A DNA stretch of 64,000 bases from Ancylobacter sp. WKF20 (GTDB lineage Bacteria > Pseudomonadota > Alphaproteobacteria > Rhizobiales > Xanthobacteraceae), in contig NZ_CP121679.1 in assembly GCF_029760895.1 (NCBI RefSeq), positions 3,020,001 to 3,084,000 of the forward strand, given 5' to 3'. The position numbers and the translations under genes were made by a program. The notes under the pieces were generated by a model. It did not search any database. It was not told the origin of the DNA and saw only the letters and a program-made list of their open reading frames with translations. This document shows, in pieces, positions 48,613 through 64,000 of this stretch. Every line of letters starts with the position of its first letter. Position 1 is the first letter of the stretch.

Positions 48613-48795
48613 GAGCTTCGCGAGTCTCCCCTGGGCCCCGGATCGGCGCGGCACCTACGTGCCGCTTGTCCGGGGAACGGGGTGGCTCGGCGGCGTGTGG
48701 TGCTGCGGCGTGTGCCGCCATGCGTGTCCCGGACCAGCGGAGGCGAAGCCGAAGCGCCGAGCCGGGACCCAGCGCAAAGCTTCGCCGAAGGCGAC
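48613..48795. repeat. Dispersed repeat, family 2 (copy B)
   Basis: Shares its order of blocks with 8563-8750 and 49109-49275: GAGTCTCCCCTGGG, GGATCGGCGC, CTTGTCCGGGGAACGG, TCCCGGACCAGCGGAGGCG, AAGCGCCGAGCCGGGACC and CAGCGCAAAGCTTCGCCG. It is strongest in the last 70 bases. Confidence 0.75.
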
Positions 48796-48841
48796 AACGC
48801 ATCTCAGGACGACCGGGCGGGACCGCCCCCACCCCTTACAA

Positions 48842-48924
48842 CGTCATCCCCAGGCTTAACCCGGCAATCATGACGTTGACCGGTGCGAAGTCGTGGATGG
48901 CCGGGTCAAGCCCGGCCATGACGG
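48842..48924. repeat. Palindromic dispersed repeat, family 1
   Basis: Begins CGTCATCCCCAGGCTTAACC with an altered inner arm and closes GGCCGGGTCAAGCCCGGCC plus ATGACGG, so one end is intact and one is degraded. It is about 83 bp. Confidence 0.8.
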
Positions 48925-49007
48925 CGTGTTGGGCAAGCACCCGTCAACTTTAGGCGGCACAACCACCGCAGGCGCCGCTCCGGTATCGCCACCCCCACCC
49001 CTCGCGA

Positions 49008-49043
49008 CGTCATCCCCGGGCTTGACCCGGGGATCCATGACTT
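49008..49043. repeat. Palindromic dispersed repeat, family 1 (half element)
   Basis: A single end: CGTCATCCCCGGGCTTGACC followed by CGGGGATCCATGACTT. No mirror end follows within 60 bases; a family 2 copy begins at about 49109 instead. Confidence 0.75.
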
Positions 49044-49108
49044 AGGGGAATGCCGGCACGCGCCCATTCGTGCTGCGCTGCGGCAAGCTGAGGGCATCAG
49101 AGAGTGAC

Positions 49109-49275
49109 GCGTTTCGCGAATCTCCGCTGGGCGCGGATCGGCGCTGCACTTATGTGCCACTTGTCCGGGGAACGGTGCGGCGGGAGGTCGTCTGGCGCCG
49201 CGACGTATCCCGGACCAGCGGAGGCGACGCCGAAGCGCCGAGCCGGGACCCAGCGCAAAGCTCCGCCGAAGGCGG
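49109..49275. repeat. Dispersed repeat, family 2 (copy C)
   Basis: GCGTTTCGCGAATCTCCGC, then GGATCGGCGCTGCA, CTTGTCCGGGGAACGG, TCCCGGACCAGCGGAGGCGA, AAGCGCCGAGCCGGGACC and CAGCGCAAAGCTCCGCCG. It is close to copy B (48613-48795), especially in its second half. Confidence 0.75.
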
Positions 49276-49315
49276 CACTCATCTCGGGACAACCGGGCGA
49301 CCGCCTCCCTCACGA

Positions 49316-49410
49316 CGTCATCCCCGGGCTTGGCCCGGGGATCCATGACTTTGGACCGATGCACGCGGAAGGGAAGGCGTGGATGGCCGGGCCAAGCCCG
49401 GCCATGACGG
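49316..49410. repeat. Palindromic dispersed repeat, family 1 (full element)
   Basis: Opens CGTCATCCCCGGGCTTGGCC and closes GGCCGGGCCAAGCCCGGCC plus ATGACGG, about 95 bp. The two ends are inverted relative to each other and each is a palindrome. GTGTTGGG follows, as after the copy at 48842-48924. Confidence 0.85.
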
Positions 49411-49486
49411 CGTGTTGGGGCAAGCACCATTCGAGTTTAGGCGACGCGACCACGGCAGGCGCCCGGCCCGGGACTGGCGTCGTCCC

Positions 49487-50326
49487 TCACCCCCCGCGCA
49501 GAAAGCGCAGGGCGCGCGCCATCGCGGTGGGAAGAACCGAGGCGTGATCCTCGCCGGCCAGCAGGGTGAAGCGGATATCCGCACCAGGGCCCAGCTCGGC
49601 CGCCGCGGCGGCGGCGAAGGCGGTGGCGCGGGTGACCATGCCGCGCGCGGCGCGGCGGGCGGCCATGTCCGCGCTCAGGGGGCCGCCCTGCTGCCAGGGC
49701 GCCATCGCCTCCTCCCATTCCCCGACCATCATGGCGAGCCGCAGCGCGGTGCCCGCCTCCCGCCGCGCAACGAGCCCCTCTCGCAGCCGGGGCTCGTCCC
49801 ACCAGAGCGATGGGCTCACCGCGACATAGGCGGCGAAGGCGGCCGGGTCACGCAGCGCCACGTCGAGCGTGAACCAGCCGCCGAGCGAATGGCCGAACAG
49901 CAGGTGGCGGCGCGGATCGAGCAGCAGGTCGGCGGCGAGGCGCGGCTTGAGCACGCTCTCGATGAAGGCGAGAAGCGCATCGCGCCCCCCCGTCGGACGT
50001 GATGGCGCGAGCCCCTCCCGCATCTCGGCGCTGGGACCGGCGGTGTAATCGAAGGTCCGGCGCCGGCGACTATCATCGTCCTCGGGGTAGCCGATGCCGA
50101 CCAGCACCGCCTCCTCGATGCCCGTGGCCTGCGTCCGGCCGGCGCCGCGCCGCATCACCTCGGTAAAGGTAGCGAAGGCGGCATTGGCATCGAGCATGAC
50201 AATCAGCGGGAAGCCGCCGGACGGGGCGGGGCCGCGCGGACGCGCGAGGAAGATGCGCCAAGGCGCGCCGCTACCGGGGGGCGCGAGATCGAACCATTCG
50301 GCATCCGGCACGATGACGGCGGGCAT
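49487..50326 (-). CDS. IroE/Fes-like siderophore esterase
   Basis: 279 aa. Alpha/beta hydrolase of the esterase-D/IroE group that hydrolyses the trilactone of ferric enterobactin-type siderophores so iron can be released. The N-terminal EWFDLAPPGSGAPWRIFLARP resembles IroE/Fes-type fold entries; the nucleophile is in LFGHSLGGWFTLDV and a likely catalytic His in LLAGEDHASVLP. There is no signal peptide, so the expected location is the cytosol. The start ATG 50326 is supported by AGGGAG; upstream codons are not used. It is divergent from the ferric-siderophore permease. Confidence 0.82.
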   Translation of the reverse strand: MPAVIVPDAEWFDLAPPGSGAPWRIFLARPRGPAPSGGFPLIVMLDANAAFATFTEVMRRGAGRTQATGIEEAVLVGIGYPEDDDSRRRRTFDYTAGPSAEMREGLAPSRPTGGRDALLAFIESVLKPRLAADLLLDPRRHLLFGHSLGGWFTLDVALRDPAAFAAYVAVSPSLWWDEPRLREGLVARREAGTALRLAMMVGEWEEAMAPWQQGGPLSADMAARRAARGMVTRATAFAAAAAAELGPGADIRFTLLAGEDHASVLPTAMARALRFLRGG

Positions 50327-50612
50327 CGGGGCTCCCTTGCGCCTCCCGCGCCGGCAAGCCCGGCACGGCCCCTGCTCTAGACCATGGCGCCGCGCGCGCA
50401 AGAGGGAGGGCGCGGCAGGAAGCGGTGTCGGCGTCCCGCGCGGGCGGTCGTGACGCAGCGGGCGGAAGGGCGGGACGCGGTGGGGGACGCGGGGGACTTC
50501 CAGACTGAAACGATTCTAAGGAATTTGCTTTCCCGTGCAGAGGCTTGACCCCCTCCGGCCCCTCATGCAGAACCGCTAGACCCGTCGCGCGGCCCGGCCC
50601 GCGGAGACCCGC
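50327..50612. promoter_or_regulatory. Divergent promoter region of siderophore esterase and permease
   Basis: 286 bp. Near 50508-50530 the sequence ACGATTCTAAGGAATTTGC has ATTC and GAAT arms (50513-50524) in an otherwise GC-rich gap. It is a candidate iron-responsive operator because both flanking genes would be iron-regulated. It does not fit a Fur, Irr or RirA consensus closely enough to name. Confidence 0.3.
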
Positions 50613-51716
50613 ATGACCGAGACCTCGCCCCCCATCGCGTCCCCTGCCCTGCCCCCCGCGGCGCCCGAGACGGCCCCGCACGCCGCCGCCCTCGCCGCCT
50701 ATGCGCGGCTGGTGCGCCGGCGCGTCGCCATCGTCATCGGGCTCGGCACGCTGATGCTGGTGGCGCTGCTGTTCGACATCGCCACCGGCCCCTCCCGCCT
50801 GCCGATCGCCGATGTGGTCGCCGGCATTCTCGACCCCGCCTCGCTCGACGGGCCCGCTCGCGTCATCATCTGGCAGGTGCGCCTGCCCTATGCGCTGATG
50901 GCGGTGCTGGTCGGCGCGGCGCTGGCGCTGGCCGGGGCGGAGATGCAGACCATCCTCAACAACCCGCTCGCCAGCCCCTTCACACTCGGCGTGTCCTCCG
51001 CCGCCTCCTTCGGCGCGGCGCTGGCGCTGGTGCTGGGGGCGAGCGTGCCGCTGCTGCCGGGCGAGTGGAACCTGCCGCTCTTCGCCTTCCTCTTCGCCTT
51101 CGGCTCGGTGCTGCTGCTGCAGGTGCTCGCCGGGCTGCGCGGCACGGGGGTGGAGACGCTGGTGCTGTTCGGCATCGCGCTGGTCTTCACCTTCAACGCG
51201 CTGGTGGCGCTGATCCAGTTCGTCGCCAGCCAGGAGGCGCTGCAGCAGCTCGTCTTCTGGAGCATGGGCAGCCTGTCGCGCGCCACCTGGGGCAAGCTCG
51301 GCGTGCTCACACTGGTCACACTGGTCACAACACCGTACTCACTGGCCGCCGCCTGGCGCATGACCGCGCTGCGCCTCGGCGAAGACCGCGCGCGCTCTTT
51401 CGGTATATCGGTCAAGAGGTTACGCTTCTTCTCCCTGCTGCGCGTCAGCCTGCTGGCGGCGACCTCCGTGGCCTTTGTCGGCACCATCGGCTTCATCGGC
51501 CTGGTAGCCCCCCACCTCGCCCGAATCCTGGTTGGCGAAGATCACAGATTCTTCTTGCCTGCCAGTATGTTAGCGGGGGCGACGGTGATGTCGCTGGCCT
51601 CGGTGGCATCGAAGACCGTTGTTCCCGGCACGCTGTTGCCGGTCGGCATTGTCACCGCACTGGTCGGCGTGCCCTTCTTCATGGCGCTGATCTTTACCCG
51701 TCGGGAGCGACTGTGA
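50613..51716 (+). CDS. Ferric-siderophore ABC transporter permease (FecCD family)
   Basis: 367 aa with about ten transmembrane helices, the BtuC/FecCD/FepD family. Features are WQVRLPYALMAVLVGAALAL, GAEMQTILNNPLASPFTLGV, FWSMGSLSRATWGKL, and the ATPase-contact region FVGTIGFIGLVAPHLARILVGEDHR (only partly quoted here). It is a single permease, presumably acting as a homodimer. It overlaps the ATPase gene by one base (TGATG). A 9-bp direct duplication (encoding LTLVTLVT) and A/T-ending rare codons appear from about 51300 onward, which is unusual for this genome. Confidence 0.88.
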   Translation: MTETSPPIASPALPPAAPETAPHAAALAAYARLVRRRVAIVIGLGTLMLVALLFDIATGPSRLPIADVVAGILDPASLDGPARVIIWQVRLPYALMAVLVGAALALAGAEMQTILNNPLASPFTLGVSSAASFGAALALVLGASVPLLPGEWNLPLFAFLFAFGSVLLLQVLAGLRGTGVETLVLFGIALVFTFNALVALIQFVASQEALQQLVFWSMGSLSRATWGKLGVLTLVTLVTTPYSLAAAWRMTALRLGEDRARSFGISVKRLRFFSLLRVSLLAATSVAFVGTIGFIGLVAPHLARILVGEDHRFFLPASMLAGATVMSLASVASKTVVPGTLLPVGIVTALVGVPFFMALIFTRRERL

Positions 51717-52489
51717 TGGCCCTGCATGTGGAGGGGCTGTCCGTCGGCTACGGCAAGCGCCATGTCATTGATAAACTTGATATTCCAGCGATCGAAGGCG
51801 GGCAGGTCACCGCGCTGATCGGACCCAACGCGGCGGGGAAGACGACGTTGTTGCGGGCGTTGGCGGGGTTGGTCAGTGCAAAGGGAACAATCCGGCTCGA
51901 GGATATCGAGCTGACGGCACTGTCCATCGCCGGCCATGCGCAGCATGTTACCTACATGCCGCAGGCGCTGCCCCAACGTGTCGCGCTGACCGTGCTGGAG
52001 GCGACGCTGAGCGCGCTGATGTCGGCGAGGGGCGAGGCCCTGCCCGCCGCGCAGGCGCGTCTCAAGGCCATGCAAGCCCTTGAGCGGCTTGGGATTTCGG
52101 ATCTCGCCCTGCGCGGGCTCGACGAGCTCTCCGGCGGCCAGCGCCAGCTCGCCAGCCTCGCCCAATCCATCGTGCGGGAACCGCGCGTGCTGCTGCTGGA
52201 CGAGCCGACGAGCGCGCTCGACATTCACCACCAGTTGCGGGTGATGCAACTGGTGGAGGAGCTGGCGCGCGAGCGGGGCATCATCGTCATCATCGTACTG
52301 CACGACATCGCCCAGGCGGCGCGTTACGCGCAGCGGATTATCCTGCTGGAACAAGGCGCTATCGCCGCCGACGGTACGCCGGCACAGGCCATCACCCCGG
52401 CGACGCTGGCCCGCGTCTACAAGGTCGAGGCGCGGGTCGAGCCCTGCTCGCGGGGCTTCCTGCAGGTCATCGTCGACCGCGCGCTTTAG
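51716..52489 (+). CDS. Ferric-siderophore ABC transporter ATP-binding protein
   Basis: 257 aa. Walker A GPNAAGKTTLLRAL near residue 37, Q-loop MPQAL, signature LSGGQRQLASLAQSI, Walker B RVLLLDEPTSALD and the switch His in IVLHDIAQAARY. It is of the FepC/FhuC type, driving ferric-siderophore import with the adjacent permease. The start ATG 51716 overlaps the permease stop. It converges with the last gene of the siderophore operon, ending 16 bases from entA. The first third has lower GC than neighbouring genes. Confidence 0.92.
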   Translation: MALHVEGLSVGYGKRHVIDKLDIPAIEGGQVTALIGPNAAGKTTLLRALAGLVSAKGTIRLEDIELTALSIAGHAQHVTYMPQALPQRVALTVLEATLSALMSARGEALPAAQARLKAMQALERLGISDLALRGLDELSGGQRQLASLAQSIVREPRVLLLDEPTSALDIHHQLRVMQLVEELARERGIIVIIVLHDIAQAARYAQRIILLEQGAIAADGTPAQAITPATLARVYKVEARVEPCSRGFLQVIVDRAL

Positions 52490-52505
52490 CTGTCGGATCA
52501 ACCAC

Positions 52506-53282
52506 TTAGCCGCGCAGCGTGGCGCCGCCATCGACATAGAGATCGGTCATGGTGATGTGGCTGGCGCGGTCGGAGAGCAGGAACACCACCGCCTCGGCTA
52601 CCTCATCGGGCGTCGCCAGCTTGCCGAGTGGAATGCCGGCCTTGAAGATCTCCGGCGTGCCGGCGATGACGCGCGCGGCGCCGTTCTCATCCGCCCACAT
52701 GCCGGTCTGCATCGGCGTCAGCGTCGAGCCCGGAGCGACAATATTGCAGCGAATTCCGTGACTTGCGAGCTCCAGCCCGAGGCAGCGGGTGAACATGGTG
52801 GCGGCGGCTTTGGAGGCGGCGTAGGCGGCCATGGCGTGGCGGGGAATGCCGGCGGCGTTCGATGATACCGTCACGATCGCCCCGCGCCGGCGCGCCTGCA
52901 TGACCTTCGCGACCTCCCGGCTGACGCGAAAAACCCCGCCGGCATTGATACTTAGCACCCGCTCCCACTCCGCATCGGTGAGCTCCGTCACCACCGTGTT
53001 GGAGAGCACGCCGGCAACGTTGGCGAGGAGGTCGATGGGGCCGATGTGGTGGACGATCAGGCCGATGAGTGCAGTCACATCCATGCTGGAGGACACATCC
53101 AGCCGGAACGGGGTCACCGCCCCGCCGAACTCGCTGGCGAGCGCCTTCACCCCGTCCTCGTCGAGATCCGTGGCGACGACGCGGGCGCCCTCCTCCACCA
53201 GGAGCCGCACCACCGCCGCGCCGATGCCGCCAGCGGCGCCGGTGACGAGGGCGAGCTTGCCGTTCAGACCGCTGTCGCGCAT
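52506..53282 (-). CDS. entA: 2,3-dihydro-2,3-dihydroxybenzoate dehydrogenase
   Basis: 258 aa. SDR enzyme that oxidises 2,3-dihydro-2,3-dihydroxybenzoate to 2,3-dihydroxybenzoate with NAD+. NAD site [19 protein letters not shown], Ser in [10 protein letters not shown], the YAASK active-site Tyr/Lys, and the EntA/DhbA-typical [13 protein letters not shown]. It is the last gene of the operon. Its ATG lies inside the end of entF (19-base overlap) and has an AAGGAG site. The identity rests on the EntA-like C-terminal loop plus neighbours entB, entC and entE. Confidence 0.9.
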
Positions 53283-56200
53283 GTCGGCTCCTTGAAATCC
53301 TGCCCCGCCAGCAGGCGGGCGAGCGCGGGGGCGATGTGCGCAGTCGCCTCCGGCCCGGTGAGATGGGCGTGCAGCGCCGGCACCTCGATCACCGCGACGT
53401 CACGGGCATAGGCCAGCCACTGCTCGGGGGAGAGATCGCGGCCCTGATGGTCGAGCCCGGCGCGCATATGGGTGATCGTGCCGTCATAGCGGCGGTGATG
53501 ATGGCCGCGCACGAGCCGGTTATTGCCGGCGACCACCCGCACCACGCCGTCGAGCGCGGCATCGGGCAGGCGCCCGAGCGGGCTGTCGGAGGCGCGCAGG
53601 AAGGCAAGCACGGAGGCACGGTTGAGCGCCAGCGCCGGTAGCCGGTCGGGGTCATGACCGGCAATGGCGATCAGCGCCTTGAGCGCGCCGTCCTCGCCGG
53701 GGTCGGGCTCGCCGCGCCAGACATCGCAGGGGTAGGAATCGAGCATCACCACCAGCCCGACCTCGCCGCCGAGATCGCGCAGCCGCACCGCCATGGCCTG
53801 CGCGATGATGCCGCCGACCGACCAGCCGAGCAGGTGATAGGGGCCTTCCGGGCGGATGGCCCGGATGCGCGCGACATAATCGGCGGCGAGCGCTTCCAAA
53901 CTTTCGGGCACCGTCCCGTCCGGCGCCAAGGCGGGCGCCTGGAGCCCATAAACCGTGCGGCGTGGATCAAGCGTGCGGGCGAGGCGGCCATAGCACCAGG
54001 AAATGCCGCCGGCCGGGTGGATGGCGAAGAGCGGCGGCAGAGCAGGATCGCCCGCCACCAGCGTGATGAGCGGGTCGAGACCTGAATCCTCGCCCTGCCC
54101 TTCCGCGTCGATCAGCCGGGCGAAGCCTTCGACGCTCGGCTGGGCGAACAGCGCGCCAAGGCCGGGATCGCGGCCGAACGCCTCGCGGACCCTGAGCAGC
54201 AGCGCGACGGCGGCGAGCGAATCCCCGCCCAGCGTGAAGAAATCATCTTCCGCCGCGATCGGCGTGGCGAGCTGAAGCTGGTCGGCGAACAAGGCTGCGA
54301 GGCGCTGCTCGGTGGGCGTTTGCGGCGCGCGCTGGCCGGTCCCCGCGAAATCGGGGGCGGGCAGCGCAGCCCGATCCAGCTTGCCATTGGCGTTCACCGG
54401 TAGCGCCTCGAGGGCTACGAAGGCGGCGGGCACCATATAGTCCGGCACCTTGGCGGCTACGCGCGCCTTGAGAACGGCAAGGTCCGCGCCGGGCTCGGGC
54501 ACGACATAGGCGACGATGCGCTTGGTGCCACGATCCTCGCGCGCGACGATGCCGGCCTGCCGCACAAGACCGGAAGCCATCACCGCCGCCTCGATCTCGC
54601 CGAGCTCGATGCGCAGGCCGCGTATCTTGATCTGGTGGTCCGAGCGGCCGAGATAGACCACCGCGCCATCCGGGCGCAGGAGGGCGAGGTCGCCCGTCGC
54701 ATAGATGCGCTCGCCCGGCAAGTGAGGGTCAGCGACAAAGCGCTCGGCGGTGAGGTCCGCCCGGCCGAGATAGCCGCGCGCGAGCTGCACCCCGCCGAGA
54801 TAGAGTTGCCCGGGGACATTCGGCGGCTGCGGGCGGCCCTGCTCGTCCAGCACATAGAGTCGGGTATTCCACACGGGGAAGCCGATGGGCACGGGCAGCG
54901 AGCGATCGTCGCGCGCGGCGGGCCAGTAGCTCACATCCACCGCAGCTTCCGTCGGCCCGTAGAGATTATGCAGCTCCGCCTTGAGGGTGCGGTGGAAGCG
55001 GTCGCGCAGATCCGCCGGCAGTTCCTCGCCGGAGCAAAACACGCGGGCAAGGCTCAGCCCCTGGGCGCTCGGCTCGGCGAGGAAGGCGGCGAGCATGGAG
55101 GGCACGAAATGCGCGGTGGTGATCGCCTCGGCGCGGATGAGGCGGGCCAGCGCCACGGGATCGCGATGCACCTCGGGCGGGGCGACGACCAGCAGGCAAC
55201 CGGTGAGGAAGGGCAGGAAGAACTCCCACACCGACACGTCGAAGGTCGCCGGGGTCTTCTGCAGGATGATGTCGGCGGGCGTGAAGGCGTAATGCGCCCG
55301 CATCCATTCCAGCCGGTTGACGATGGCGCGGTGCTCGATGACGACGCCCTTCGGCTCGCCGGTCGAGCCGGAGGTGTAGATCACATAGGCCGTATCGCCC
55401 GGCTGCGGGGCGGCAAGACCGGTGCCCAGTGGCTCGCGCGGCCAGGCGGCGGGGGGGAGCACGGGAACGCCGGCAAAGCGCGGCGCATCGCTGTCGCCGG
55501 CCAGCACCAGCTTCGGGGAGGCGGAGGCGAGGATGCGGGCGAGCCGCGCATCCGGCTGGGCGAGATCCACCGGAAGATAGGCGGCACCGGCGCGGATGAT
55601 GGCGATGAGCGCGATGACCAGCTCCAGTGAACGCGGCAGCGCCACCACGACGATGTCTTCACGACCGATGCCGCGAGCGGCCAGCGCCTCGGCCAGTGCG
55701 CGCGAGCGGGCGTCGAGCGTGGCGTAATCCAGCGTCTGGCCCTCGAAGCGCAGCGCCGGGGCATGGGGCGTCTCCCGCATCCGCGCCTCGATCAGCGCGG
55801 CGAGCGTGGTGTCGGGCACGGGGTGATCGGTCGCGTTCAGCGTGACGAGCGCCCAATGGGCTTCCTCGGGCGTCGCGGTCGGCACCGCCTCAAACGTGTC
55901 GGCGGCGCTGGCGGCGGCGATGAACTGCGCGAGGCGCGCGGCATGGGCGGCAACCTCAGCGGCGTCGTAAAGCGCCGGGTTGGCATCGACCTCGAGCCGC
56001 AGCCCATCTGTGCCGTGCAGGCGGAAAGTGAAGGTGATGTCCTCCACCGGCCCGGTGCTCAGCACCTCCAGCCGGCTCTCCAGCCCGGCAAAGCGGGGCT
56101 TCTCGTCGAAAGGCAGCAGGTTGATCAGCGGGCCGTGCAGGCGCCGCTGGCCGCCAATGAGCTTGAGGTCGCGGCGCAGCTGCTCGCTGCGGTAGCGCCC

Positions 56201-57172
56201 ATGCCGGCGGGCGCGGGTGAGGCTTTTGGCGACGCCCACGAGATAATCCGGCAGGGAGGCACCGGCCGGCACGGCGACGCGCAGCGGCAGCACATTCATC
56301 AGCATGGCCGGCACGCGGGCGGCCGCGCTGCCCATGCGCGCCATGAAGGGCACGCCGACCACCACTTCGGGAGTGCCGGTGTGGCGCTGGACATAGGCGG
56401 CGGCGAGCGCGGTGACGACATCCGGCCACGGCACATTGACCTGATCGCCCAGCGCCCGCAGCCGGGCGAAGGCGGCGCGGTCGATCTCCACCGCCCGGCG
56501 GTGGAAGGTGAAGGCGCTCATCGGCGTGCCCGGCGCGAGGCTCGCCACTTCCGGCCGGTCGGCGAACAGACCCTGCCAATAGGCGCCGTCGGTCGCGCGC
56601 TTTTCCGAGGCGCGGTAGGCGGCGTCCTCATCAAGCGCCACACGCACGGAGGGCGGGGGATTGCCGGGGGCGTTCCCGGCGCAAGCGGCGTTGTAGAGCT
56701 CCGCGACGCGCTGGGTGAGCAGGATCATGCCATAGCCGTCAATGGCGAGATGGTGGACGCGCTGCTGCCAGATATGACGGTCAGGACCGAGCACGAACAG
56801 CCGCTCGGCGGCGAGCCTGTCGCGCACCGGGTCGACCGGGGTCGCCATGTCGCGGGCGATGTCGGCCGTCGCCGCGGCGAAGGGATCGGGGGCGGCGGAG
56901 AGGTCGATCACCTCCAGCACGGGGCGGCGGGCGGGGTCGATCATCTGGTGCGGGCCGGCGGGATCGTCGATCAGCGCCAAAGCGAGCGCATCCGCCTCGA
57001 CGACCGCCTGCGCCAGCGCGGCCTCAAAGGCGGCGCGGTCGAGCGGGCCGGTCAGTTCGATGTACTGGCCGGTGTTGAACAGCGGATTGGCCGGGTCGAG
57101 CCGCTGCGCGTACCACAGCCCCGCCTGCGCCTCGGCGAGCGGGAAGGTCTCGCCCTCGGTGCTCCCGCTCAT
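53264..57172 (-). CDS. entF: EntF-like nonribosomal peptide synthetase (C-A-T-TE)
   Basis: 1302 aa, one module. Condensation HHLAIDGYG near residue 139; adenylation YTSGSTGEPKGV near 598; carrier FTLGGDSLAAVA near 981; thioesterase LGWSVGGIIAQ near 1115. The adenylation pocket residues, read by alignment to the known GrsA/EntF positions, are D-V-W (FDVSVW), H (TAHFVPSM), F-S (VFCSGE), L (HNLYGPTE), V-D and K (NANGKLD). This matches the serine code of EntF. It should load Ser, acylate it with the DHB carried by the aryl carrier protein, and cyclise the products through the TE. It starts two bases after the carrier-protein stop. Confidence 0.93.
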   Translation of the reverse strand: MSGSTEGETFPLAEAQAGLWYAQRLDPANPLFNTGQYIELTGPLDRAAFEAALAQAVVEADALALALIDDPAGPHQMIDPARRPVLEVIDLSAAPDPFAAATADIARDMATPVDPVRDRLAAERLFVLGPDRHIWQQRVHHLAIDGYGMILLTQRVAELYNAACAGNAPGNPPPSVRVALDEDAAYRASEKRATDGAYWQGLFADRPEVASLAPGTPMSAFTFHRRAVEIDRAAFARLRALGDQVNVPWPDVVTALAAAYVQRHTGTPEVVVGVPFMARMGSAAARVPAMLMNVLPLRVAVPAGASLPDYLVGVAKSLTRARRHGRYRSEQLRRDLKLIGGQRRLHGPLINLLPFDEKPRFAGLESRLEVLSTGPVEDITFTFRLHGTDGLRLEVDANPALYDAAEVAAHAARLAQFIAAASAADTFEAVPTATPEEAHWALVTLNATDHPVPDTTLAALIEARMRETPHAPALRFEGQTLDYATLDARSRALAEALAARGIGREDIVVVALPRSLELVIALIAIIRAGAAYLPVDLAQPDARLARILASASPKLVLAGDSDAPRFAGVPVLPPAAWPREPLGTGLAAPQPGDTAYVIYTSGSTGEPKGVVIEHRAIVNRLEWMRAHYAFTPADIILQKTPATFDVSVWEFFLPFLTGCLLVVAPPEVHRDPVALARLIRAEAITTAHFVPSMLAAFLAEPSAQGLSLARVFCSGEELPADLRDRFHRTLKAELHNLYGPTEAAVDVSYWPAARDDRSLPVPIGFPVWNTRLYVLDEQGRPQPPNVPGQLYLGGVQLARGYLGRADLTAERFVADPHLPGERIYATGDLALLRPDGAVVYLGRSDHQIKIRGLRIELGEIEAAVMASGLVRQAGIVAREDRGTKRIVAYVVPEPGADLAVLKARVAAKVPDYMVPAAFVALEALPVNANGKLDRAALPAPDFAGTGQRAPQTPTEQRLAALFADQLQLATPIAAEDDFFTLGGDSLAAVALLLRVREAFGRDPGLGALFAQPSVEGFARLIDAEGQGEDSGLDPLITLVAGDPALPPLFAIHPAGGISWCYGRLARTLDPRRTVYGLQAPALAPDGTVPESLEALAADYVARIRAIRPEGPYHLLGWSVGGIIAQAMAVRLRDLGGEVGLVVMLDSYPCDVWRGEPDPGEDGALKALIAIAGHDPDRLPALALNRASVLAFLRASDSPLGRLPDAALDGVVRVVAGNNRLVRGHHHRRYDGTITHMRAGLDHQGRDLSPEQWLAYARDVAVIEVPALHAHLTGPEATAHIAPALARLLAGQDFKEPTCATAV

Positions 57173-57174
57173 GC

Positions 57175-57459
57175 TCAGGCCCGAGCCGCCTGTTTCGCGT
57201 CGACCAGCGCCCACCAGCCGTTGAGCGTCGGGGTTTCCGCGAAATCGGAGAATTCCAGCTCCAGCCCGCCCTCGCTCCAGGCCAGCACGAGATTCATCGC
57301 CCGCATGGAATCGAGGCCGAGATCCATCAGGCTGTCATCGCCGCCGATCTCGTCCGGGTCTTCATGCAGCATGCGGGCAATGTCGGCGCGCATCCGCTCG
57401 CGGGTGATCGGGGCCGCGGGGGTGACGATGCGGCGGATATCGCCGGGCTCGATGGCCAT
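57175..57459 (-). CDS. Stand-alone aryl carrier protein (EntB ArCP-like)
   Basis: 94 aa. Phosphopantetheine carrier domain with the 4'-PP serine in LGLDSMRAMNLV, preceded by DDSLMDLG. It is equivalent to the C-terminal domain of E. coli EntB, but encoded alone. It would carry 2,3-dihydroxybenzoate after EntE activation. The ATG overlaps the stop of the isochorismatase gene by one base, and a TGGAGG site precedes it. Longer frames upstream are shadows of the isochorismatase gene. The operon position and the ArCP-like tail (TPTLNGWWALVDA) support this role. Confidence 0.88.
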   Translation of the reverse strand: MAIEPGDIRRIVTPAAPITRERMRADIARMLHEDPDEIGGDDSLMDLGLDSMRAMNLVLAWSEGGLELEFSDFAETPTLNGWWALVDAKQAARA

Positions 57460-58103
57460 CACAGAACCTCCAGAACATCCGCGCTCATCAGCGGCACCGC
57501 GCACACATCCGCCGCATAGGCGAGGGCGAGGTCGTGCTTGGCGCGGGAGAAATCGGCGAGCGCGTCGGCCACCAGGAAGGGCTCGATGTCGCGCATGAAG
57601 GCATCCGCCGCGGTCAGCGTGCAGCCAATATGGGCGTAGACGCCGCAGATGATCAGCTGGTCGCGCCCGCGCGCGCGCATCAGCGTCTCCAGATTCGAGC
57701 GCTGGAAGGCGCTGTAGCGGTGCTTCACCAGGACGAAGTCGCCGGGCTGGGGCGCCAGCGCGGGATGGACCGGCTGATGCTCGGGCGCCGCGCTCATGCC
57801 GGGGCCCCACAGATCAGCCTGAAGCCCGCGGTCGCGCCGGTCCTGATTGCCCTCCTGCGCGGTGTAGAACACCGGCACGCCCGCCGCTCGCGCCGCCTGC
57901 GCCAGCTGCGCGATATGGGCGATCACCGGCACGAGCGGGGAGGCGTCGGGAGCGAAGACGCGCAGGAAATAGTTCTGCATGTCGTGGATCAGCAGCGCCG
58001 CGCGGTCGCGCTCCAGCGTCCACGGCCCGCGCGGGGTGGGCAGTTCCTCGCGGCGCGGCAGGTCGTAGGCGGGAATGGTGGGAAGACCGGGTTTCGCGCT
58101 CAT
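57459..58103 (-). CDS. entB: Isochorismatase (EntB-like, without carrier domain)
   Basis: 214 aa. Converts isochorismate to 2,3-dihydro-2,3-dihydroxybenzoate and pyruvate. Catalytic Asp in LIHDMQNYF, Lys in LVKHRYSAF, and the EntB-like segment [18 protein letters not shown], with the family cysteine position. The protein ends after the hydrolase domain, whereas E. coli EntB continues into an aryl carrier domain. The carrier here is the next gene. It starts 4 bases before the end of entE. Confidence 0.93.
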
Positions 58104-59737
58104 CGGGCGGCCTCCTGTTCGAGGAAGCGGCGCCGCAGGCTCGCGCGCAGTTCCTTGCGCGAGACCTTGCCGACCGCCGTGGTCTCGAAGGCATCAACGA
58201 AGACGATCTGGTCCGGCACCTTGAAATCGGCGAGTCCGCGCGTGCGCATCCACGCCTTCAGCGCCGCAGCTTTCGGCTTCTCGCCGGAGGCGATGATGAA
58301 GGCGCAGGAGCGTTCGCCCAAAAACGCGTCTGGCAGCGACACCACCGCCGCGTCGAACACGCTGGGATGGCCGAGCAGATGGTCCTCGATCTCCTCGGCG
58401 GAAATCTTCTCGCCGGCGCGGTTGATGTGGTCGCTGGCGCGGCCCTGCACCACGAGATAGCCCTCAGGCGTGCGCTTCACCACATCGCCGGTGCGGTAAT
58501 AGCCGTCGGGCGTGAAGGAGCGGGCATTCGCCCCGTCGTTGTTGTGGTAGGCGCGGATCGTGTAGGGCCCGCGCGTGAGCAAATTGCCAGCCTCGCCCTC
58601 GGGCACGGGATGGCCGGCATCGTCGAGGATCAGTACCTCGTCGGCGGCGCTGATCGGCCGGCCCTGCGTGTCGGTGATGATGTCTTCCGGGTCGTCGAGG
58701 CGGGTGTAGTTCACCAGCCCCTCGGCCATGCCGAACACCTGCTGCAGCGTGCAGCCGAGCACCGGGCGCACGCGGCGGGCCGATTCCGGCAGGAACTTCG
58801 CCCCGCCGACCTGCAGCACCTCCAGGGACGACAGGTCGTGCGCGGTCCCCGGTGCCGCCTGCAGCCAGAGCAAAGCGAGCGGCGGCACGAGGCCGGTGAT
58901 GGTCACGCGCTCGCGGGCGATCAGCGGAAAGGCGACTTCCGGGCTCGGCGAGGGGGCGAGCACGACGCGCGATCCCGCATGGAGCGCGCCGAACACGCCG
59001 GGCGAGCTCATGGGGAAATTATGCGCGACGGGCAGCGCCGCGAGATAGACGCTGTCGGGCGTCAGGCCGCAGATCTCGGCGCTCGCCCGGAACGAATAGA
59101 TGTAGTCGTCATGGGTGCGCGGAATGAGCTTGGAGAGCCCCGTCGAGCCGCCGGAAATCTGCAGGAAGGCAACCTCCGAGGGGTCGGCATCCTCGGGGAG
59201 CACCACACCTTCACCGGAGGGCAGCGAGGCGAGCGAGGGGAACTCACCGCCCTCCCCGCCCTCCCCGACCACCACGACATGTTCCACGGCCGGCACCTCG
59301 GCGACGACCTGCGCGGCCAATGCGCGGTAGTCGAAGCCGTCATGGCTGGCGGCGATGAGGTAGCCGCGCGCCTCGGCCGTGCGGGCGAAATGGGTGATCT
59401 CAACATGGCGATGGGCCGGCAGCGCATAGACCGGGACCAGCCGGGCGCGAAACAGGCCGAACACGACGGACAGGAATTCCGGGATGTTGGGGATCTGCAC
59501 CACCACCCGGTCGCCGGGTTGAAACCCGATCGCCAGCAGGCCACGGGCGATGCGCTCGGCGCGGGCTTCCAGCTCGGCGAAGCTCCAGCGCTGGTCGCCG
59601 CCGACCACGGCGATATGCGCGGGCATCTCCCATACGCGCTGGCGCAGGAAGGAGGTGAAGGTTTCCCCGCGCCAATAGCCGGCGGCGCGGTAGCGCGCGG
59701 CAAATTCCGGCGGCCAGACCTGTCGAAGCGGGATCAC
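58100..59737 (-). CDS. entE: 2,3-dihydroxybenzoate-AMP ligase
   Basis: 545 aa. Stand-alone aryl adenylation enzyme. The P-loop reads [18 protein letters not shown], very close to EntE/DhbE. The segment [13 protein letters not shown] is the A8-type hinge and [11 protein letters not shown] with [13 protein letters not shown] carries the catalytic lysine. It activates 2,3-dihydroxybenzoate and loads the carrier protein. The start is GTG 59737, preceded by GGGAGAG at 8 bases; this gives [20 protein letters not shown], aligning well with EntE. A TTG at 59752 is less likely. It follows entC by 21 bases. Confidence 0.94.
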
Positions 59738-59758
59738 GCGAAACTCTCCCAAACGCCC

Positions 59759-61009
59759 TTACGCGCCCGCGTCCAGCGGGCGGCCATCCTCGTCGATGCC
59801 GAAAGCCTGCAGCAGCGCGGCGAATTTGGCGGAGGTCTCCTCCCCCTCGGCGGCCGGATCGGAGCCCGGCACGATTCCGGCCCCGGCATAAAGCCGGGCT
59901 TCGCCGCCGGCAATGCGCGCGCAGCGAATGGCGACGTGCCAGGCGCCGTCGCCCGCCGCGTCACACCAGCCGACCGCGCCGGCATAAAAGCCCCGGTCAT
60001 AGCCTTCGAGCGCGGGAATGGCGCGGGCCGCCACCGCGCGCGGCGCGCCGCAGACGGCGGGCGTCGGGTGCAGCAGCGCGGCGAGTTCGAGGCTCGACAT
60101 GGCGGGATCGCGCAACCGGCCGGCGATGCGCGTGCCGAGGTGCCACATGGTGGCGGTGGAGGTGATCTGCGTGCCCTCCGGCGTGCCAAGCTCGGCGCAA
60201 TAGGGCGCGAGCTGATCGAGGATGGCCTCCACCACGGCGCGGTGCTCCCGCCCGTCCTTCTCGGAGACGGCGAGCGCCTCAGCCGCCGCGCGGTCATCGC
60301 CCGCATCGGCACGGCGGCGGGCCGAGCCGGCGAGCGGGTGGGAGAGAAGGGCCGCGCCGGTCTTGGATATCAGCAGTTCCGGCGTCGCGCCGATGAACAC
60401 GCCGCCCTCCTCCGTGCCGGCCAGCGGCACGCAGAAGGTGGTGACGCTTTCATCGCGGGCGAGCGCCTGAAGCAGCGCCCCGGCGTCGATCGGCCGGTCG
60501 GCGGCAAGCCGCAGGCTGCGCGAGAGCACGATCTTGCGCAGACGCTCGCCGCTCGCATCCGTCTGGCCGCGCGCCATGGCGTCGAGCGCGGCCGTCACCG
60601 CCGCGCGATAGGCGGGCAGCGTCGGCTCGGCCATGACCCGCCATTGCGGAGCGCCGGCCGGCGCCAGCGGGCGCGGACCGCTTGCGCGCGGCAGCAGCCC
60701 GGACAGGTCCGGACGGCCGGCCTGGCGCGTGAGTTCCGCCGGCTGCAACAGATGGGCCGGCGCGTCCATGTCATAGGGCAGCGCGCCGACCAGCAGGCGC
60801 GGACCTTCCGGCCGCGCGGCGAAGTAAGCGCGCACCCGCGCCTCGACCGGCGCCGGGCCTGCCTCCAGCCGCCCAAGGCAGCCCTGCCCGATCAGCGTGT
60901 CCTCCCGGCCTGCCAGCACGAAGGGCAGGGCCGGGGCGGACATCGCCGCCGGGCGGATCGCAGATGCCACGCGCTCAGGCCGCGCGGCATCGGTGAGACG
61001 GGCATTCAT
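59759..61009 (-). CDS. entC: Isochorismate synthase
   Basis: About 416 aa. Chorismate-binding family enzyme that isomerises chorismate to isochorismate, the first step toward DHB. Family blocks are KIVLSRSLRLAA, FIGATPELLISKTG, the HPLAGSARRR motif, SEKDGREHRAVVEAI, and late AGAGIVPGSDPAAEGEE. The start is uncertain among ATG 61036, 61021 and 61009, none with a strong ribosome site. It follows the beta-propeller gene by 43 bases or less. It is the first of the five biosynthetic genes proper. Confidence 0.92.
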   Translation of the reverse strand: MNARLTDAARPERVASAIRPAAMSAPALPFVLAGREDTLIGQGCLGRLEAGPAPVEARVRAYFAARPEGPRLLVGALPYDMDAPAHLLQPAELTRQAGRPDLSGLLPRASGPRPLAPAGAPQWRVMAEPTLPAYRAAVTAALDAMARGQTDASGERLRKIVLSRSLRLAADRPIDAGALLQALARDESVTTFCVPLAGTEEGGVFIGATPELLISKTGAALLSHPLAGSARRRADAGDDRAAAEALAVSEKDGREHRAVVEAILDQLAPYCAELGTPEGTQITSTATMWHLGTRIAGRLRDPAMSSLELAALLHPTPAVCGAPRAVAARAIPALEGYDRGFYAGAVGWCDAAGDGAWHVAIRCARIAGGEARLYAGAGIVPGSDPAAEGEETSAKFAALLQAFGIDEDGRPLDAGA

Positions 61010-61052
61010 CGGCAGACCCATTGACGGTCCATCCATGCGAGGTGGGCGCCGC

Positions 61053-62303
61053 TCAGGGCTTGATGAGGGTGACGGTGTCGCCGAAGGGATCGACCATCGG
61101 CACCGGACGGCCACGCTCGCCGCCGGGACCACCCGCAGGCGGCGCACCAGCCGGAGCACCTGCCGGAGCACCTGCCGGGGAAGCACCGGCCGGCGCGGCG
61201 GCAACCGGCGTCGCACCCGCCGGGGGAGCACCCGCCGGAGGAGCGCCCGCCGGCGCGGCGGCGCCCTCGGGCGGACGCGGACGCGGCACGCTCTTCACCT
61301 TGTTCGACACATAGACATTGCCGCTCTCGGCATCGACCGCGATGGTCTGCGGCATGGAGCCGGTGACGACATTGGCGATGGGGTCGAGCGTCTTGGTGTC
61401 GATCAGGCTGACGAAACCGCCGGTGCGGTTGGCGACATAGAGGATGCTGCGCTTGGCATCGAGCGCCACGCTCAGCGCGCCGCCGCCGGTCGGGATTTCC
61501 TTGATCAGCTTGCCGTCCTTGGCGTCGAGCACGGTGACTTCGCCCGAGCCCTGATTGGCGACGAAGACCTGATCGCCGCTGGCGTCATAGACGAGGTTGA
61601 TCGCGCCCTCGCCGCCGGTGGGGTAGCGGTTCGTCACCTTCTTGCTGGCGAGATCGACCACCACGACCTCATTGGCCTGCAGCGCGGAGAGGAACAGGCG
61701 GTTGTTCTTGGCATCAAGCGCGATGCCGGCAATGCCGCCGGTGAGGTCGTCAATGCTGTCGACGATCTTGTTGGTGGCGCCGTCGATGATCCACACGGCG
61801 CTCGGCGTGTCGCGCATGCCGAGGACGGTGACATAGGCGCGGTTCTTGGCCTCGTCGACCGCGACCTCGCGCACATGCGCCTTCTCGCCCTTGGCAAGCT
61901 TGGCGACGACCTTGCCGCTGGCGAGGTCGATCACGCCGACCGAGCCGTCGCGGGTCTGCGTGCCGTAGAGCGTCTTGGTCTTGGTGTTGATGCCGAGCCC
62001 GAACATAGGGTCATCGCCGGTGGGAATGGTCTCGCGGGTTTCCAGCGTCGCCGGATCGAGCGCCAGAACGCTGGTCTCGGTGGCGCCGCGCGCGCCGGCG
62101 GCGGCGACATAGACGCGGTTGGTCGAAGCGCCGAACACGATCTCGTAGAGGCCCTGGCCGGGCTTCACCTGCTTGACGAATTCCGGGTCCGCGAGCGCCG
62201 CGCCACCGAGCGCCACCAGCGCCGTGGCGGAAAGCAGGGCCGAGCCCAGAAGGCGGAAGGACAGGCGGGCTTTAGGCCGGGAGGGCGTCGCGTCGATGGT
62301 CAT
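61053..62303 (-). CDS. YncE-like beta-propeller protein with Ala/Pro/Gly repeat tail
   Basis: 416 aa. Signal peptide (to about residue 38, GGAALADPE), then a seven-blade YVTN/NHL-like beta-propeller with repeated cores such as VSLIDTKTLDPI and GSVGVIDLASGKVVA. The E. coli relative YncE is an iron-regulated periplasmic protein of unknown role. A tandem P-A-G-A tract lies at about residues 345-391, before a short conserved tail DPFGDTVTLIKP. The start ATG 62303 has a GGAG site. It lies between a binding protein and entC, apparently in the siderophore operon. A role in periplasmic siderophore handling is inference. Confidence 0.8.
   Translation of the reverse strand: MTIDATPSRPKARLSFRLLGSALLSATALVALGGAALADPEFVKQVKPGQGLYEIVFGASTNRVYVAAAGARGATETSVLALDPATLETRETIPTGDDPMFGLGINTKTKTLYGTQTRDGSVGVIDLASGKVVAKLAKGEKAHVREVAVDEAKNRAYVTVLGMRDTPSAVWIIDGATNKIVDSIDDLTGGIAGIALDAKNNRLFLSALQANEVVVVDLASKKVTNRYPTGGEGAINLVYDASGDQVFVANQGSGEVTVLDAKDGKLIKEIPTGGGALSVALDAKRSILYVANRTGGFVSLIDTKTLDPIANVVTGSMPQTIAVDAESGNVYVSNKVKSVPRPRPPEGAAAPAGAPPAGAPPAGATPVAAAPAGASPAGAPAGAPAGAPPAGGPGGERGRPVPMVDPFGDTVTLIKP
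61130..61268. repeat. Short tandem repeat coding for Ala-Pro-Gly tract
   Basis: 12-base-type units such as GCCGGAGCACCT and GCCGGAGGAGCG repeat about ten times inside the propeller gene. They encode a P-A-G-A tract that is probably unstructured. Such tracts commonly vary in copy number by slippage. Confidence 0.75.
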
Positions 62304-62365
62304 GGCGGTACTCCGTTGAGGATGTCGTTGGCGGCGTGCGAAGCTCCCGGCGAGCGACGCAGGTT

Positions 62366-63514
62366 TCAGTCGAGCGCAACCCAGTTCGGGCCCTCGATGG
62401 GCACGGCAAGGAAGCGGGCATTGACCTCGGCGACGGTGGCGTCGACATCGAGGGCGCCGAAGCGCTCGGGGTGGATCCATTTGGCGAGGATTTCGACCGC
62501 GAACAGGTCGAGCGCGGAATTCAGCATCTGGTGCGACAGGCCGTAGACCCGCTTGTCGCGCACCGCCGCCAGCCCTGCGAATCCCGGCCGGGCGATGACG
62601 CGGGCCAGCGTCTCGCGGGCGCGCTCCGCGGTGTATTCCGGCCCGATCAGCAGCCCGCCCGTGCCTTCCATATGGCTGCCGCCGGTCGCGATATAAACCT
62701 GCGGATCCTGGGCGATGACATATTCGAGGTTGAGCTTGCCGAAGGCGCGGGGAATGACCGCCGCGCCGATATTGGCGCCGCCCACCAGGTCGATGATCTC
62801 GCCGACATTGCCGCGCCCCGGCGAATTGCAGCAATCCGCCGTCATCGCCGCGTGCGGCTCGAGGAAGACGCGCGGGCGCTCGGCGGGGGACAGGTTGGCG
62901 AGTTTGCTGGTCACCGCCTCGAGATGGGCGCGGCGATAGGCCAGGAAGGCCTCGGCCTTCTCGGAGGCGCCGGTGGCGGCGCCGAGAAGGCGCAGGCTCG
63001 GCTCGGTATTGGTCAGCGGGTGGGTGAAGAAGTCGATCACCACCACCGGGATGCCGGCGGCCTCGATGCGGGCGCGCTCCTCCTCGCTCGGCTGGGAGCC
63101 GAGGGAGAACACGGCGAGGTCCGGGCGGGCGGCCACCACCTGCTCGACCGAGAGCGAGCCGGCCGAGCTCGCGACCTTGGCCAGCGTCTCGATGGCGGGG
63201 AATTTCGCCCGATAGGCGTCATAGGTGTTCTTGCCCAGCCGGTTGATGTCGCGCGGCCAGGCCGCCAGCACGCTCACCGGATCGGGCTGGATGAGGGCAA
63301 GGGCGACGAGGAAGCGGCCATCGTCGATCAGCAGGCGTTTGGCGGGGGCGGTGAGCGTCACCTGCCGGCCGGTGAGGTCGGTCAGCTGCACCTCCGCCCG
63401 CGACGGCAGCACCAGCGTCGTCCATGCCAGCAGGCCGGTCACCAGCGCGACCAGCAGCCGGGCGGGAGCGAGGCGCGGGCGGCGCGCCGGAAGGGCCGGA
63501 AGAGTGAAAGCCAT
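62366..63514 (-). CDS. Ferric-siderophore ABC transporter substrate-binding protein
   Basis: 382 aa. Periplasmic binding protein of the helical-backbone (FepB/BtuF/FhuD) type. Signal peptide to about residue 38 (LPSRAEV), then LTDLTGRQVTLTAPAKRLLI, ARPDLAVFSLG, VVVIDFF and the late IGPEYTAERARETLARV. It is likely the partner of the permease and ATPase at 50613-52489, although it lies at the far end of the locus. A cysteine pair CC (ADCCNSPGRGN) is unusual for this family and could form a disulfide. The start ATG 63514 lacks a strong ribosome site; TTG 63535 is an alternative. Confidence 0.85.
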   Translation of the reverse strand: MAFTLPALPARRPRLAPARLLVALVTGLLAWTTLVLPSRAEVQLTDLTGRQVTLTAPAKRLLIDDGRFLVALALIQPDPVSVLAAWPRDINRLGKNTYDAYRAKFPAIETLAKVASSAGSLSVEQVVAARPDLAVFSLGSQPSEEERARIEAAGIPVVVIDFFTHPLTNTEPSLRLLGAATGASEKAEAFLAYRRAHLEAVTSKLANLSPAERPRVFLEPHAAMTADCCNSPGRGNVGEIIDLVGGANIGAAVIPRAFGKLNLEYVIAQDPQVYIATGGSHMEGTGGLLIGPEYTAERARETLARVIARPGFAGLAAVRDKRVYGLSHQMLNSALDLFAVEILAKWIHPERFGALDVDATVAEVNARFLAVPIEGPNWVALD

Positions 63515-63874
63515 CGCGAGGTCTGCTTGGATCAACGGGCATCGGATGCTGGCGTCATCCGCCTCGGGGACAGACGTGTCAACTAAACAATTTGTAACAG
63601 CTTGTTTTTAATTACTCTAAATAAGAATAAATACGGTAATTGTCGCGATACTTCCGAAACTATACGCGACATTACTGCCCCTGCGTCATCACGAGTGGGT
63701 CAACCGCGCGCGCTTCTCGGCAGGCTTGGCACGCCCGTCCAAAATGCCGCAGTGCAACCAGAAACGGTATCAGATGGGTGTGCCGCTCTCGCCGCCCGGC
63801 AGCGAATTTGCTAGGTACGCCACGCGCCGCCCTGCGGGGCCGGTGCTTCGGCATCTGGGGGATGGGATCACTTC
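63515..63874. promoter_or_regulatory. Divergent binding-protein (siderophore operon) / ugd promoter region
   Basis: 360 bp with no gene. The stretch 63580-63650 is AT-rich (TTTTTAATTACTCTAAATAAG), consistent with the siderophore operon promoter. An inverted repeat TGTCGCG (63641-63647) / CGCGACA (63665-63671) lies next to it with a 17-base spacer. CTCTAAATAAGAAT weakly recalls half an iron-control (ICE/Fur) motif, but I cannot assign it. Confidence 0.4.
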
Positions 63875-64000
63875 ATGCGCGTTGCAATGATCGGTACCGG
63901 CTATGTCGGCCTTGTTTCCGGTACGTGCTTTTCGGACTTCGGCCATCACGTGACCTGCATCGACAAGGATGCCGGCAAGATCGAGCGGCTGAACCGCGGC
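63875..64000 (+). CDS. ugd: UDP-glucose 6-dehydrogenase (3' truncated by window edge)
   Basis: First 42 residues of Ugd: [20 protein letters not shown] (Rossmann GxGxxG), continuing [20 protein letters not shown]. The enzyme oxidises UDP-glucose to UDP-glucuronate for polysaccharide or glycolipid synthesis. The start ATG 63875 is supported by a GGGGGATGGG ribosome site. It is divergent from the siderophore operon, and the rest of the gene is outside the window. Confidence 0.9.

Follow-up and report, generated by a model that had tools for sequence, protein, structure and literature searches.

Does the environmental alphaproteobacterium Ancylobacter sp. WKF20 carry a complete gene set for an enterobactin-type catecholate siderophore, and what would that siderophore be? 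The question is raised by a 64,000-nt stretch of its genome (contig NZ_CP121679.1, positions 3,020,001 to 3,084,000; hereafter the window, to whose first base all coordinates refer), in which a sequence-only reading had placed an eight-gene operon of this kind. According to our analysis, the locus is genuine, looks functional, and belongs to a known type. It is an intact and conserved cluster predicted to make 2,3-dihydroxybenzoate (DHB), to join it to L-serine, and likely to release an enterobactin-type ester siderophore, a reading to which we assign a probability of roughly 0.8. The biosynthetic genes likely form one operon beside a separate transporter pair.

Structure of the operon

The eight genes occupy positions 52506–63514 of the minus strand, with the place, strand, and families that had been claimed for them, and no frame contains an internal stop. 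The claim of gaps no longer than 62 bp is also borne out: from the binding-protein gene through the propeller, entC, entE, isochorismatase, aryl carrier, and entF genes to entA, the junctions measure 62, 31, 21, −4, −1, 2, and −19 bp (negative values denote overlaps), and 4 of the 7 are within 2 bp or overlapping, in keeping with the several overlapping starts and stops described earlier. Chance origin is excluded, since every protein has a family match with E ≤ 1e-10 and 25 of the 30 genus genomes, that of WKF20 among them, share this gene order.

The first gene (62366–63514, alternative start at 63535) encodes a periplasmic siderophore-binding protein of the Peripla_BP_2 family with 382 amino acids (aa; PF01497, E = 7e-17; siderophore-binding protein with PDB entry 6b2x, 1.9e-72). 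It is followed by a YncE-like beta-propeller of 416 aa (61053–62303; NF052280 YncE, 3.2e-53; PDB 3vgz YncE, 3.4e-35), which has a Pro/Ala-rich tail and a signal peptide predicted by eye. All the DHB genes are present, together with a DHB-AMP ligase. Isochorismate synthase EntC (59759–61021) and 2,3-dihydro-2,3-DHB dehydrogenase EntA (52506–53282) exceed the cut-offs of TIGR00543 (259 versus 225 bits) and TIGR04316 (336.5 versus 300 bits), respectively. The DHB adenylation enzyme EntE (58100–59737, alternative start at 59752) matches TIGR02275 with 714 bits and the DHB-AMP ligases 6e8o and 1md9 in PDB at E ≤ 1e-208, and the single-domain EntB-type isochorismatase of 214 aa (57459–58103) matches PDB 7l6j (5.4e-86) and Escherichia coli EntB (7.4e-61). 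Start codons are unsettled for the binding protein, EntC, and EntE, each having in-frame alternatives 12–21 bp off.

EntB is split: the aryl carrier protein is encoded by a separate gene, entB' (57175–57459), whose 94-aa product has the attachment serine in the motif GLDSM (PF00550, 9.4e-11; E. coli EntB carrier domain, 3.1e-9). The sequence-only reading had listed both genes with no comment on the split. As for entF (53264–57172), it encodes a nonribosomal peptide synthetase (NRPS) of 1302 aa with a single condensation-adenylation-carrier-thioesterase module (C-A-T-TE; PF00668, PF00501, PF00550, and PF00975), predicted to use L-serine.

Catalytic features and predicted product

Alignment with E. 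coli EntF shows an identical serine code of the adenylation domain (DVWHFSLVDK). The condensation-domain sequence HHLAIDG (motif HHxxxDG) and the carrier sequence GGDSL both match E. coli EntF, and the thioesterase triad is intact, positions 1138, 1165, and 1271 being S, D, and H as in the E. coli enzyme. The code, motif, and triad positions compared are those that we take to matter; the residues themselves were read from the alignment. Since EntF also groups with EntF-type synthetases, the claim of enterobactin-type catecholate biosynthesis is supported. The closest solved chain to the isochorismatase, 7l6j, is EntB of Stenotrophomonas maltophilia (SmEntB), and the Ancylobacter protein keeps 12 of the 12 active-site and pocket positions taken from the SmEntB lists in PMC12210187, which is also our source for the identity of this chain. 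Domains, active sites, and serine code are thus consistent with synthesis of 2,3-DHB-L-serine esters.

In the proposed pathway, EntC, EntB, and EntA would convert chorismate to DHB, which EntE would adenylate and then load onto the stand-alone carrier EntB'. The condensation domain of EntF would couple DHB to serine on the EntF carrier, and the thioesterase would join the units through ester bonds, most likely closing three of them into a ring. The ferric complex would be brought back into the cytoplasm by the binding protein, an ATPase, and one permease, which is presumably homodimeric; there, an esterase would cut the ester backbone and free the iron. The esterase has no evident signal peptide (by eye), which suggests that it is cytoplasmic and acts after import.

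Several observations weigh against this reading. EntF obtains 886 bits with its model versus a cut-off of 2400, EntE stays under the curated cut-offs of its models (714 versus 723.6 and 609 versus 783 bits), and the isochorismatase has no match to any EntB model in NCBIfam. No TonB-dependent outer-membrane receptor is seen within the cluster. The complete genome yields no recognised MbtH protein and, by four profiles, no recognised phosphopantetheinyl transferase of the Sfp/EntD type, only AcpS. Furthermore, 5 of the 30 genus genomes do not have the locus (G013, G014, G022, G026, and G027; best E ≥ 1e-11). The product for Ancylobacter is a prediction from its genes, and PMC12210187 reports that S. 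maltophilia produces DHB-serine and likely molecules related to it rather than enterobactin.

The S. maltophilia system, for which that source gives the same biosynthetic order and a split EntB, would suit an alternative in which the Ancylobacter locus yields DHB-serine monomers or linear oligomers instead of the cyclic trimer, the thioesterase hydrolysing early or the esterase opening the ring. Divergence of the thioesterase region from E. coli EntF, where the best phmmer stretch stops at query residue 1155, points the same way. The triad, however, is complete, and an esterase would presumably have little to act on if the product lacked ester bonds. Paracoccus EntF also belongs to the same larger clade, and Paracoccus denitrificans PD1222 makes cyclic enterobactin (PMC13251462). 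On balance, we consider an acyclic product rather unlikely. That the product is another kind of catecholate, its different tailoring or amino-acid partners being encoded outside the cluster, appears highly improbable: catecholate pathways can be scattered over a genome (PMC13251462), but the cluster has one module with a serine code identical to that of EntF, no epimerase domain, and no second NRPS module. The enterobactin-type ester remains the preferred product.

Conservation and selection within the genus

Of the 30 genus genomes, 25 have an ortholog of the isochorismatase (best E ≤ 1e-99), the WKF20 genome (a single contig of 4,630,237 bp, 99.99% complete) included. All 25 loci have the carrier as a separate gene and keep the binding protein, EntC, EntE, isochorismatase, carrier, EntF, and EntA in the same order. 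The propeller is recovered by tblastn in 24 of them and is intact on direct reading in the 25th (L119). Permease and ATPase lie near the operon in 24 loci and the esterase in 23; the L119 stretch is cut off by the start of its contig just beyond the permease, and the stretch examined for L104 yielded none of these three genes. The ratio of nonsynonymous to synonymous substitution rates (dN/dS) for the eleven genes is 0.046–0.229 versus G024 and 0.076–0.282 versus Ancylobacter radicis, with 0.046 for the carrier protein. These values, 0.05–0.28 against two relatives, indicate that all eleven genes are under purifying selection.

Among named organisms, A. radicis (Xanthobacteraceae, Alphaproteobacteria) has the closest EntF (93%), and the nearest named relatives, Ancylobacter and Starkeya of the Xanthobacteraceae, agree with the alphaproteobacterial host proposed from the sequence. 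Two genus members, G018 and G023, have a second DHB-type locus (L102 and L103, isochorismatase identity 69–70%), with an Sfp-type transferase match in an adjoining 612-aa frame and an NRPS-like match nearby.

Predicted uptake genes and upstream element

Three further genes at 49487–52489, beyond the span given in the sequence-only reading, belong to the locus. A single iron-siderophore permease gene of the FecCD/BtuC type (50613–51716; BtuC and FecD models at E ≤ 1e-56, all under cut-off) overlaps a gene for a siderophore ABC transporter ATPase (51713–52489; PF00005, 1.9e-27); both lie on the plus strand and run towards the operon. On the minus strand, pointing away from the permease gene, is a siderophore esterase gene of the BES/PfeE/IroE kind (49487–50326; PF00756, 4.5e-13; PDB 2qm0 BES, 3.5e-36; PDB 6gi0 ferric enterobactin esterase, 2.7e-23). 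Just past its 3' end, REP-like direct and inverted repeats of about 25–84 nt are clustered at 48634–49463.

The transporter does not conform to the FepB-FepDGC type. The binding protein reaches 28 bits with the FepB model versus a cut-off of 205, the permease 120.5 bits with the iron-enterobactin permease model versus 422, and one permease gene stands beside the operon instead of FepD and FepG. Elsewhere in the genome there are seven TonB-receptor matches. Barrel fragments of six of these were profiled: two resemble ferrichrome/ferrioxamine receptors, three resemble heme receptors, and one (L015) has the catecholate receptor Fiu as its best model, below cut-off. Only a heme match (L014) exceeds its cut-off.

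Alignment of relatives reveals a conserved AT-rich element of 45 nt upstream of the operon (63577–63621, minus strand), whose last bases, TTGACA, lie about 60 bp ahead of the start of the binding-protein gene and which is a candidate promoter or iron operator. It has at most 12 mismatches to the genus consensus in 21 of the 25 loci versus 0 of 1000 shuffled sequences, the consensus being derived from the same loci on which it was scored, and is the sole match in the window at up to 18 mismatches. The Irr-type palindrome TTTAGA-N4-8-TCTAAA has no match in the window, and a sigma-70 consensus scan of 52300–64000 found none.

Comparison with known systems

The closest described form is the entCEBB'FA (stenobactin) locus of S. 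maltophilia, which shares with Ancylobacter the C-E-B-B'-F-A order and the separation of isochorismatase and carrier. Three S. maltophilia-like genomes show this order, their EntB scoring 203–205 over 208 residues against SmEntB, compared with 133 over 214 for the Ancylobacter isochorismatase (scores are identities less gap penalties). Unlike S. maltophilia, Ancylobacter has a binding protein and a propeller heading the operon, with permease, ATPase, and esterase alongside; the S. maltophilia-like stretches (18.5–19.9 kb) contain no relatives of these five proteins at E ≤ 1e-5. According to PMC12210187, entC, entB, entA, and entF mutants of S. maltophilia lose or lower siderophore activity, some of it remaining in entB and entC mutants, and the split EntB is likened to the Streptomyces griseobactin genes. 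The ent gene names and Fur regulation in S. maltophilia are described in PMC9769818.

The plasmid p1318-3 of Roseomonas marmotae (L200) has, like Ancylobacter, propeller, EntC, EntE, isochorismatase, carrier, EntF, EntA, and esterase genes in one row. It differs in that the binding-protein gene is apart on the other strand and the esterase gene is the next one after entA, in the same orientation; the annotation of this stretch includes neither a siderophore permease nor an ATPase. Paracoccus alcaliphilus shares the EntE-carrier-EntF row with a stand-alone carrier, as well as a hydrolase, a propeller-like gene, a binding protein, and an importer nearby, whereas its entC, isochorismatase, and entA genes lie outside the stretch examined. 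In both Haematobacter (L201, 6372–6941) and P. alcaliphilus (L204, 7691–8263), a cytochrome b gene is annotated on the other strand just before the EntE-carrier-EntF row, possibly linked to iron reduction.

The enterobactin cluster of E. coli has entC, entE, entA, entF, the thioesterase triad, and the serine code in common with Ancylobacter, with an esterase and an ABC importer nearby. However, its entB is one fused gene, its genes form several divergent units and include two for permeases, and entD, ybdZ, fepA, entS, and entH are also present; EntF identity is about 39%. The Ancylobacter locus is therefore ordinary, its biosynthetic gene order being already known from Stenotrophomonas, with two exceptions: the transferase that was not found and the propeller companion.

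Distribution and phylogeny

Such loci had been described as less familiar outside gammaproteobacteria, Bacillus, and Streptomyces, and this is correct only in part. Genes of this kind are uncommon in evenly drawn samples: with the WKF20 genome counted, 2 of 385 genomes of the class match at E ≤ 1e-60, and 9 of 397 of the order and 24 of 398 of the phylum at 1e-40 (gene context was examined in every further matching genome of the order, 8 in number, in the 1 of the class, and in 18 of the 23 of the phylum). On the other hand, comparable loci exist in the alphaproteobacterial genera Roseomonas, Pararhizobium, and Pelagibacterium, and PMC13251462 reports enterobactin production from dispersed genes in the alphaproteobacterium P. 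denitrificans PD1222. A limited literature search, judged from paper listings, turned up no description of such a locus from Ancylobacter or Starkeya.

Outside the genus, isochorismatase and carrier are also split in G650 (Pelagibacterium, judging by a near-identical EntF), G516, G295, a Mesorhizobium metagenome-assembled genome (MAG), three Castellaniella, R. marmotae, Pararhizobium, Rhizobium lusitanum, and the three S. maltophilia-like genomes; 19 loci were scored as fused, with the carrier in frame after the isochorismatase. In the isochorismatase tree, a single supported group (99/93) takes in 21 of the 24 split rows, together with one row for which no carrier was found. A single origin of the split everywhere is rejected, as the three Castellaniella rows group with fused ones.

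According to the EntF tree, six rows of the Ancylobacter group form one clade (100/98). It adjoins a larger set with Paracoccus and Xanthomonadales, the join itself having support of only 85/85, and Ancylobacter EntF lies inside a clade (99/98) that also contains Paracoccus and Stenotrophomonas-type EntF. In a partial form of the phylogenetic check proposed earlier, a tree that has no non-catechol synthetases as a full outgroup, EntF groups with EntF-type synthetases. Rows had to have a frame of 1000–1500 aa, which left out G833, the second locus of G018, G1033, G634, and Castellaniella defragrans; G295, G1040 (a partial row), and G650 (a near-copy of Pelagibacterium) are also left out. The placement of the long rows (E. 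coli EntF, S. rimosus, and Thioclava) is uncertain, and MAG proteins labelled P. denitrificans stand in for EntF of PD1222.

Phosphopantetheinyl transferase

A phosphopantetheine arm is required on both EntF and EntB'; in E. coli it comes from EntD, encoded in the enterobactin locus. Which enzyme could supply it in Ancylobacter? PF01648 finds only AcpS in the WKF20 genome (G000:C1:1093881-1094156, L011). PF17837 and PF22624 find nothing there, both being narrow models that match 3 and 2 of 14 control genomes, respectively. A profile built from ten Sfp/EntD-type sequences gives only a partial 26.8-bit match to AcpS, and a very divergent enzyme could escape it. With this profile, 14 of the 25 cluster-bearing genomes have no recognised Sfp-type enzyme (G000, G001, G004, G005, G006, G007, G008, G010, G011, G016, G021, G024, G025, and G028); the other 11 have a match, three of them inside frames of 1598–1775 aa. 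The search is able to detect such enzymes: in the S. maltophilia-like genome G1044, PF01648 picks up an Sfp-type frame with 78.8 bits.

Ten of the 14 genomes have a single PF01648 match at E ≤ 1, and a second, weak match is present in each of G005, G011, G021, and G025 (two such matches in G021; E 0.03–0.35). These were rejected as missed transferases: in G011, G021, and G025 the Sfp profile gives at most 3.4 bits and the largest frames are unlike the fused transferase frame of G020, and in G005 the profile scores 9.8 bits with a frame of 120 aa, which is not long enough to encode an enzyme of the Sfp type.

The finding of AcpS alone by four profiles would fit a cluster that is poorly active for want of a dedicated transferase and is kept for some other reason, such as uptake of foreign catecholates. 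Against this stand the low dN/dS values of all 11 genes versus the nearest relative (0.05–0.23; carrier 0.046) and the intact state of the cluster in 25 of 30 genus genomes, including the 14 with no recognised Sfp-type enzyme. We hold poor activity to be quite unlikely, and a functional cluster remains our preferred reading.

YncE-like propeller

To our knowledge, the role of YncE-like propellers in iron biology is unsettled. The Ancylobacter protein is called YncE-like only, as it obtains 181 bits with NF052280 and the equivalog cut-off is 400. Relatives of it (tblastn, E ≤ 1e-5, query without its tail) occur within the stretch in 9 of 19 loci with a split or stand-alone carrier, in none of the 19 fused loci, and in none of the 10 other stretches, Ancylobacter being counted once and one of the first 19 (G634) having no carrier found. 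The positive loci are those of Ancylobacter, Roseomonas, Haematobacter, Paracoccus, Thioclava, Streptomyces rimosus, and three Castellaniella, and thus come from alphaproteobacteria, betaproteobacteria, and a Streptomyces. L102 and L103 are among the ten other stretches and are labelled split in the isochorismatase tree; counted so, the fraction becomes 9 of 21. Fisher's test gives p = 0.0011, and 0.0012 with the Castellaniella and S. maltophilia-like loci collapsed to one each (7 of 15).

Since the loci were not randomly drawn, stretch lengths differ (several fused ones span 7.7–16 kb), and propeller repeats resemble one another for general reasons, we treat this association as a lead. The relatives have 28–34% identity, with 49% for Roseomonas, and four of them match the YncE model below cut-off. 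E. coli YncE is described in PMC5120174 as a Sec-exported propeller under Fur control. It is possible, if doubtful, that in Ancylobacter the NRPS and the free aryl carrier are primed without an Sfp/EntD-type enzyme, by AcpS or an unrecognised transferase, and that the secreted propeller is dedicated to the siderophore cycle, for example to periplasmic handling of the ferric catecholate.

Implications

An environmental alphaproteobacterial genus thus has, in 25 of 30 genomes examined, a complete gene set to make and import a catecholate. The locus poses the questions of how a catecholate NRPS is activated when a complete genome shows no recognised Sfp/EntD-type transferase, and what YncE-like propellers do beside siderophore genes. 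The missing transferase and the propeller association are leads of more value than the operon itself.

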